Assembly: GCA_013002295.1 (NCBI GenBank) | Contig: JABDKI010000089.1 | Location: forward strand, 1 to 35,660 | DNA from: Altererythrobacter sp. | GTDB taxonomy: Bacteria; Pseudomonadota; Alphaproteobacteria; Sphingomonadales; Sphingomonadaceae | Length of the DNA stretch: 35,660 bases | Direction of reading: 5' to 3' | Shown here: piece by piece, positions 18,798 to 21,614 of the stretch | Position numbering within the stretch: the stretch's first letter is position 1 | How the letters are laid out: every line of letters starts with the position of its first letter | Position numbers and translations under genes: made by a program | Notes under the pieces: model-generated | The model's database searches: none | What the model was told of the DNA's origin: nothing | What the model saw: only the letters and a program-made list of their open reading frames with translations

Positions 18798-18874
18798 TGG
18801 TGACCCCGGCGTGATTCGAACACGCGGCCCCCAGATTAGGAATCTGGTGCTCTATCCGGCTGAGCTACGGGGCC
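18798..18874 (-). tRNA. tRNA-Arg (anticodon CCT)
   Basis: On the minus strand a 77-nt cloverleaf runs from GGCCCCG to encoded CCA. The acceptor stem pairs GGCCCCG with CGGGGTC with one G-T. The D arm has AGCTCAGCCGGATAGAGC, the anticodon stem CCAGA/TCTGG closes the loop TTCCTAA, and the T arm contains GTTCGAACA. The anticodon CCT decodes AGG. Its 3' end lies six bases from the MFS stop. No second copy of its 3' end was seen in the window, so there is no sign of an integrated element. Confidence 0.97.
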
Positions 18875-20324: not shown

Positions 20325-20582
20325 CTACCCCGCCAGCAATGAGTCGAGCTTGCCTTCGCGTTCCAGCGCGACGAGATCATCTGATCCGCCGACATGGACA
20401 TCGTCAATGAAAATCTGCGGCACTGTCATGGCACTGGGTGCGCGTGCCAGCATTTCATCCCGTTTGGGGCCGCCCATTGTGATGTCATACTCGTTAAACT
20501 CGGCGCCCTTCTCCTTCAGCAGGCGCTTGGCACGAACACAGAATCCGCAGGCGAACTTGGTGTAGATGTCGATTGTCGGCAT
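20325..20582 (-). CDS. grxC: Glutaredoxin 3
   Basis: An 85-residue dithiol glutaredoxin that reduces disulfides with glutathione. MPTIDIYTKFACGFC holds the active-site Cys12 and Cys15 (CGFC instead of the common CPYC), while TVPQIFIDDVHVGGSDDL has the cis-proline and glutathione-binding GGSDD. The track ORF extends to 20723, but that extension is unlike the family and would run into the hsp20 leader; ATG 20582 is the natural start. It leads the grxC, carbon-nitrogen hydrolase, DUF1178 run. A hairpin, CTCCCG/CGGGAG with a four-base loop, sits in its leader at 20605-20620. Confidence 0.93.
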   Translation of the reverse strand: MPTIDIYTKFACGFCVRAKRLLKEKGAEFNEYDITMGGPKRDEMLARAPSAMTVPQIFIDDVHVGGSDDLVALEREGKLDSLLAG

Positions 20583-20621
20583 CGTATTTCTCTTGTCCCG
20601 TTTGCTCCCGAATGCGGGAGA

Positions 20622-20650
20622 CTTGAAAGCCCATTTGCGACACCTATTTG
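20622..20650 (+). promoter_or_regulatory. RpoH (sigma-32)-like promoter of hsp20
   Basis: CTTGAAA at 20622-20628 is followed after about 16 bases by CTATTT at 20644-20649. This resembles alphaproteobacterial RpoH promoters (CTTGAA ... CTATAT-like). It lies about 100 bp before the hsp20 start, leaving a leader long enough for a structured RNA. A heat-shock promoter suits the gene it precedes. Confidence 0.6.
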
Positions 20651-20674
20651 GTATATGTCGAGGCTCGCCGCAAT

Positions 20675-20755
20675 GGGGGCTGCGACAATCACCACGGGCG
20701 CTGCAGTTGCAGGCTCCTAACATTTTTTGAATTGCTCAGAAGAGGATTTGATATG
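20675..20755 (+). promoter_or_regulatory. ROSE-like RNA thermometer in the hsp20 5' leader
   Basis: Two hairpins can be drawn in the leader. The first pairs GGGGGCTGCGAC (20675-20686) with GTTGCAGGCTCC (20706-20717): 12 positions with two G-U pairs and one mismatch. The second buries the ribosome binding site: GAATTGCTC (20729-20737), loop AGAA, GAGGATTTG (20742-20750), and it can extend towards the ATG. The TTGCT box facing AGGA across a G-G and a U-U mismatch is the hallmark of ROSE elements, in which heat melts the hairpin and frees the ribosome binding site of small heat-shock genes. The family rule is established; this instance is inferred from hand folding. Confidence 0.65.
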
Positions 20756-21229
20756 TCACGTCTAGATTTTACCCCGTATCGCCGTTCGACCGTAGGCTTT
20801 GATCACCTGTTCGACTTGCTCGAAAACAAGGTTCGCCAGAACGTCGGCGATAACTATCCTCCATTCAATATCGAGCGCCGCGGCGATGAAGAATATCGCA
20901 TCACGCTGGCAGTAGCCGGCTTCCGCCCGGACGACATCGATATCACCGCTCAACAGAACCTGCTGACGGTACAAGGCCGCAAGCGCGATGACGCTCCCGA
21001 GGGTCAGATGCTGCATGTCGGCATTGCCAATCGCGGGTTCGAGCGCCGCTTTGAGCTTGCGGACTATGTCCGCGTCGAAAACGCCGATATGGCAGACGGG
21101 CTCCTAACCATTGATCTGGTGCGCGAAGTGCCTGAAGCGATGAAGCCCAAGAAGATCGCGGTCAACGGCCATACAGCCAAGTTGAAGGCGGTTTCGTCCG
21201 GCGATGGCAGCCAAGTCGACGCGGCGTAA
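20753..21229 (+). CDS. Small heat-shock protein (Hsp20/alpha-crystallin family, IbpA-like)
   Basis: A 158-residue chaperone that binds unfolding proteins to prevent aggregation. The alpha-crystallin domain spans about residues 36-130: PPFNIERRGDEEYRITLAVAG, FRPDDIDITAQQNLLTVQGRK, then RGFERRFELADYVRVENADM and DGLLTIDLVREVPEAMKPKKI. The latter resembles the IbpA-like class A of alphaproteobacteria. The N-terminal YRRSTVGFDHLFDLLE is also typical. The start is ATG 20753 with GAGGA seven bases upstream; the track start at 20648 lies inside the leader. The gene stands alone with a heat-shock-like promoter, a thermometer-like leader and its own terminator. Confidence 0.93.
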   Translation: MSRLDFTPYRRSTVGFDHLFDLLENKVRQNVGDNYPPFNIERRGDEEYRITLAVAGFRPDDIDITAQQNLLTVQGRKRDDAPEGQMLHVGIANRGFERRFELADYVRVENADMADGLLTIDLVREVPEAMKPKKIAVNGHTAKLKAVSSGDGSQVDAA

Positions 21230-21257
21230 GCACAACAACATTAATTTAGGAATTAAA

Positions 21258-21284
21258 AGGGGGCGGACCGTTCATCCGCCCCCT
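21258..21284 (+). terminator. Intrinsic terminator of hsp20
   Basis: A ten-base-pair perfect stem (AGGGGGCGGA paired with TCCGCCCCCT, seven-base loop) begins 29 bp after the hsp20 stop and is followed by GCGATTTTC. An A run precedes it. This is a convincing rho-independent terminator, possibly usable from both sides. Confidence 0.85.
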
Positions 21285-21614
21285 GCGATTTTCATCGCCT
21301 CGTTCGATTTGTAACGTCCGGGTCGCAAAAGGCGTTACAAACCAGCTCGAGCTCTTTGCCAACGCAGGAACGCGCTAGCCAAATACACAAAGGGTGCTTT
21401 CGCCCCAAACCTCCGGTCCCCTCCGGAAGACTTTGTAACTGCTACGTTGTGAATGTTATCATGCGCAAGAATTATCTTGCTGACTTGTAAGAACACGACA
21501 GCAATTGCTGCAATTTGCGCAAAAATCGATTTTGAATGCAAATTCAGGCGCTTGAACGCTCAATTTGGCTGTGCTTGAAAGTGCAGAATTGGCAGTCTGT
21601 CCCTCAACCAAGGG
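21285..21614. repeat. Palindrome-rich non-coding region between hsp20 and pyrG
   Basis: About 330 bp with no convincing gene. It holds several inverted repeats: TTTGTAACG with CGTTACAAA (21308-21341, nine perfect pairs, 16-base spacer), GCAAGA/TCTTGC (21465-21480), CAGCAATTGCTG (21499-21510) and AAAATCGATTTT (21522-21533). A third, isolated copy of TTTGTAAC lies at 21432-21439. The stretch is AT-richer than its surroundings. It should include the end of the pyrG transcript, but no textbook terminator was seen. The function is unknown. Confidence 0.5.

Follow-up and report, generated by a model that had tools for sequence, protein, structure and literature searches.

Thermometers of the ROSE-like type that have been published combine a U(U/C)GCU box opposite the Shine–Dalgarno (SD) sequence with sigma-32 transcription (PMC3669281). 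The ROSE1 element of Bradyrhizobium hspA contains four hairpins, with hairpin IV as the sensor, whereas the short ROSE-like ibpA thermometers of Pseudomonas contain two hairpins in approximately 62 nt and pair the box with the SD, combining sigma-32 transcription with translational control (PMC3669281). ROSE-G elements carry CUGCU with a double G bulge (PMC12857270), and both ROSE-G and fourU elements hide the SD in a terminal hairpin.

In this study, the leader of an hsp20 gene was analysed in a window of 35,660 nt, the whole stretch of DNA under study, from an Altererythrobacter genome. Like ROSE (RF00435), the leader lies before a small heat-shock gene, is built of several hairpins with a bulged G in hairpin I, and ends in a terminal hairpin of the form UUGCUC-NNNN-GAGGA that hides the SD. 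It resembles the Pseudomonas elements in its box, its promoter and its predicted control, and differs from ROSE1 in having three hairpins, and from the Pseudomonas elements in having three hairpins in approximately 96 nt. It shares the SD-hiding terminal hairpin with ROSE-G and fourU; unlike ROSE-G, the box has one bulge and reads UUGCU, or UCGCU in certain relatives, and unlike fourU, the conserved fold has no run of four U paired to AGGA. No report of ROSE before hsp20 in the sphingomonad family was found in the literature searched; the paper on Sphingomonas melonis Hsp17 does not mention the promoter and contains ROSE solely in its reference list.

We conclude, with a probability of roughly 0.93, that the hsp20 leader is a three-hairpin RNA thermometer of the ROSE class transcribed from an RpoH-type promoter, including opening of the ribosome binding site (RBS) by heat. 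It appears to be a real, previously unmarked member, with its RpoH-type promoter, of a class that is itself well known. Homologous leaders, their covariation and the conserved promoter all support the ROSE identity, and with it the reading of an earlier note on this DNA, which had proposed a ROSE-type thermometer and an RpoH-type promoter before hsp20.

The hsp20 locus and its promoter

The hsp20 gene (20753..21229, + strand) encodes a small heat-shock protein of 158 aa (PF00011, 66.8 bits), and its PF00011 match is the only one detected in the draft genome (2.1 Mb, approximately 88% complete). The divergent neighbour is a glutaredoxin gene (20325..20582, − strand; PF00462, E 4.4e-19), and 170 bp separate its start at 20582 from the hsp20 ATG at 20753. 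CTP synthase, triosephosphate isomerase and SurA-like PPIase genes also flank hsp20, and a tRNA-Arg (CCT) lies at 18798-18874 on the − strand. The flanking genes, like the comparison with the family, are consistent with a sphingomonad. Two further elements were observed 3′ of hsp20, namely, a strong inverted repeat, GGGGGCGGA/TCCGCCCCC, at 21258-21284, which is terminator-like on the opposite strand, and an imperfect palindrome around CTCGAG at 21332-21365.

Pattern matching and conservation identified an RpoH (sigma-32)-type promoter at 20622..20649 on the + strand, with a −35 box CTTGAA (20622-20627), a spacer of 15 bases and a −10 box CCTATTT (20643-20649). The element ends approximately 104 bp before the ATG, in agreement with the heat-shock-like promoter that had been placed about 100 bp upstream. 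It deviates at a single base from the RpoH1 consensus of alphaproteobacteria, CTTGAA-N15-16-CCTATAT (quoted in PMC4843759). The pattern CTTGAAN{15,16}CYTATNT had a single match in the 2.1-Mb draft genome, which was the hsp20 promoter, and the reversed control had none. Among the 110 hsp20 leaders collected from the family for comparison, 109 carried a site scoring at least 10/13, a score reached by 8% of shuffles; the spacer was 15 in 96 of these 109, and the position was mostly 90–110 bp before the ATG. The genome contains an rpoH gene (362 bits, above the TIGR02392 cut-off of 323), and no sigma-70 promoter was found in 20550-21450. Transcription of hsp20 probably depends on RpoH. The transcription start would be expected approximately 6–8 bases past the −10 box, where hairpin I begins, and no observation puts it downstream of 20675.

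Leader structure and its conservation in relatives

The leader extends from approximately 20657 to 20752 and folds into three hairpins on the + strand. Hairpin I (20657..20686) consists of an outer stem (20657-20660/20683-20686), a second stem (20662-20666/20677-20681), a bulged G at 20667 and the CC/GG pairs 20668-20669/20675-20676. Hairpin II (20696..20716) pairs GGGC with GCTC and, past a bulged G at 20700, CTGC with GCAG around the loop AGTT. Hairpin III (20727..20751), the thermosensor, has the 5′ arm TTGAATT[G]CTC, the loop AGAA and the 3′ arm GAG-GATTTGA; it contains the anti-SD box TTGCT (20732-20736) with the bulged G at 20734 and sequesters the SD sequence AGGA (20743..20746, + strand). 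The RBS hairpin described in the earlier note is borne out, given that TTGCTC (20732-20737) lies opposite GAGGA (20742-20746), with AGAA (20738-20741) as the 4-nt loop between them. The same is true of its ROSE hallmark, the TTGCT box opposite AGGA, which reads UUGCU or UCGCU in relatives, and of the multi-hairpin ROSE layout, since three covarying hairpins precede the start codon. The loop, which had been called unusually short, is of ordinary length: the Rfam ROSE consensus has four loop bases, as do most relatives, and ROSE1 has the tetraloop CUUG (PMC11342760).

The Rfam scan of the window gave no match of ROSE (RF00435) to the hsp20 leader even at E = 10, though the model matches the same leader in many relatives; the covariance match expected from the earlier reading was thus missing, and the window copy has diverged beyond the reach of the Rfam model. 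At E ≤ 1, RF00435 matched 89 of 201 family genomes, 22 of them above the cut-off, and it was without a match in the genome of the window and in three other genomes of its genus. On orthologous leaders, matches over the full model length reached up to 41.2 bits and stayed under the gathering cut-off of 45. ROSE_3 (RF02523) gave a subthreshold match on one relative's leader only (L036, 29.8 bits against a cut-off of 43) and none in the window. Two weak Rfam matches in the window (E 4.5 and 7.3), both on the opposite strand, were rejected as chance. At E ≤ 10, the scan matched no other credible RNA family. Three relatives (G104, G059 and G018) have 3–5 Rfam ROSE matches each, several of which lie directly before further hsp20 genes.

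TTGCTC or TCGCTC stands a few bases before GAGGA in nearly all of the 110 family leaders. A covariance model, R1, was built from the leaders of 11 relatives, with the genus of the window left out. On the window, R1 scored the leader at 53.9 bits (E 1.1e-10), a value for which the model sequences were blind to the window but the structure, fixed with the hairpins of the window already known, was not. The leader ranked first in the whole genome at the same score (E 6.3e-9), 38 bits above the runner-up at 16.1 bits. R1 gave 96 matches over 100 family loci. Across the class, it matched 26 leaders from other families, and in 25 of these the element runs up to the beginning of an Hsp20 gene; the contig of the remaining one breaks off 17 codons in. 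As that search made no use of the gene, this placement before hsp20 provides independent support. Three leaders of one lineage (L031, L039 and L040), with matches of approximately 71 nt, seem to be without hairpin II, hairpin I being followed directly by hairpin III.

Covariation was analysed in three sets of leaders; MAFFT alignments A1-A3, in which a stem was out of register in some rows, were left out. The seed alignment (11 leaders) was not fitted to a structure, but its rows had been chosen for clean alignment; 99.2% of its cells were paired, and 9 of the 24 pairs changed on both sides. In the 96 family leaders, whose alignment was fitted to the structure and consequently leans towards it, 96.8% of cells were paired and compensatory changes occurred in 19/24 pairs, across all three hairpins, including all seven modelled pairs of hairpin I and all eight pairs of hairpin II in the family model. 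The covariation score of these 96 leaders was 0.469 compared with 0.181 ± 0.006 for shuffled alignments and at most 0.080 for slid partners; sliding the pair partners by 1–3 bases abolished the covariation. In the separate set of 26 class-wide leaders, 97.1% of cells were paired and 17/24 pairs were compensatory. The earlier reading had hung on covariation of these pairs in related hsp20 leaders, and both sets contain it.

Hairpins I and II are also conserved in structure, each with a fixed bulged G, and could form a binding platform; a conserved structured 5′ UTR might act through a bound protein, a small RNA or mRNA stability rather than mainly through temperature-dependent opening of the SD. 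We regard this explanation as very improbable, because proven thermometers are characterised by an SD-hiding UUGCU box with a bulged G (PMC3669281, PMC11342760), the box precedes small heat-shock genes here, and the Rfam scan at E ≤ 10 yielded no other credible family. Still less probable is that control of hsp20 lies solely with the RpoH promoter and that the hairpin is a relic or incidental. The consensus promoter is unique in the genome, and hairpin III of the window is among the weakest in the family (102nd of 110 in short-segment energy), which would fit such a relic; however, the core bases of hairpin III are invariant (G, C and T in 96/96 leaders each), and every one is kept in the window, which suggests that purifying selection maintains the pairing.

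The bulged G and its repetition

The bulged G20734 of hairpin III is invariant in the 96 leaders, and the U beside it forms U.G in 74, C-G in 13 and U-A in 9 of them. Because relatives can have U-A or C-G in place of U.G, this U is taken to be paired and the G to be bulged. The G-G and U-U mismatches that had been read in this stem form one possible register; the single bulged G beside a U.G wobble is better supported. Two structures of related stems are available. In the crystal structure of a ROSE-like stem the G is bulged, and deleting it lowers heat induction (PMC11342760), whereas in the NMR structure of ROSE1 the same G is paired with a G across the stem (described in PMC11342760). Our reading of the hsp20 leader agrees with the former, unlike the G-G pair of the latter.

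A single bulged G in the context Y[G]C is present in all three hairpins of the window leader (20667, 20700 and 20734). When the 96 leaders were folded freely, 222 of the 243 single 5′ bulges fell on a G, nearly all of them as Y[G]C. Two or three such bulges per leader were found in 77/96 relatives, and not even two in any of 960 shuffles. The Rfam ROSE consensus draws a bulge in hairpins I and III and a continuous stem in hairpin II, in which the window leader differs. No paper describing the repetition was found in a literature search that was thin on primary ROSE papers. It is conceivable, and we propose it tentatively as a doubtful reading, that in alphaproteobacteria the ROSE sensor motif is repeated in all three hairpins, together with covariation of the Y-R pair next to it. 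On this reading, hairpins I and II might be copies of the sensor hairpin or mimic its structure, and rather than simply aiding folding they would supply either several hinges that are labile to temperature or a binding site in repeated form.

Predicted folding, heat response and implications

The openness values given here are model numbers rather than measurements. For AGGA in the leader, mean openness was predicted to rise from 0.03 at 25 °C through 0.08 (37 °C) and 0.12 (42 °C) to 0.22 (48 °C); the corresponding values for hairpin III alone were 0.05, 0.15, 0.27 and 0.47. The RBS is thus predicted to be closed at 25 °C, as the earlier reading implied for low temperature, and the opening is gradual rather than switch-like. 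Removal of the bulged G in silico locked the stem, with AGGA openness at most 0.05 throughout. At positions occupied by C-G and A-U in relatives, hairpin III of the window has wobble pairs, and less warming may suffice to open it than to open theirs.

Single-sequence folding was rejected as proof, because the total folding energy of the leader was no better than that of shuffles (z −0.37). When the coding sequence was included and took part in the pairing, the minimum-energy fold changed register and paired the U6 tract with UCAGAAGA; the SD is hidden there too, yet the register differs from the conserved one. The ROSE register accordingly rests on comparison, not on energy alone. The U6 tract (20723-20728), which allows this alternative hairpin, is particular to the window copy. 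An in-silico change inside the anti-SD CUC box shifted the predicted opening little, since in the full leader the SD is also covered by other pairings, and the energy model alone therefore does not single out hairpin III. The 12-position hairpin that the earlier note had drawn upstream of hairpin III (20675-20686/20706-20717) pairs on paper at 11 of 12 positions and belongs to the best fold when the RNA is cut at 20675, but it has next to no chance of being the fold of the full leader, in which it can form only by breaking the more stable hairpins I and II that use the same bases, is 8–11 kcal/mol worse at 25–42 °C (−25.5 against −36.0 kcal/mol for the conserved three-hairpin fold of leader 20657-20755 at 30 °C) and is not the one that covariation favours.

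With the conserved three-hairpin fold, temperature-dependent melting and translation of the leader would be expected from the folding model. The RpoH-type promoter would yield an hsp20 mRNA with the leader of approximately 96 nt, and at low temperature hairpin III would pair UU[G]CUC with GAG-GA and hide the AGGA RBS. The bulged G and the adjoining U.G wobble would make the stem marginal, so warming could open it and allow translation to start. The GC-rich hairpins I and II would probably remain folded and may hold hairpin III in register. During heat shock, RpoH would raise transcription, and the thermometer would add a direct, faster gate at translation.

On strong comparative evidence, the known ROSE thermometers are hereby extended to hsp20 of a sphingomonad family, in which the Rfam model misses the genus of the window. 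A 2013 study described the role of the upstream ROSE hairpins as ‘not fully understood’ (PMC3669281), and the family model together with the repeated bulged-G pattern offers a direct test of that role.
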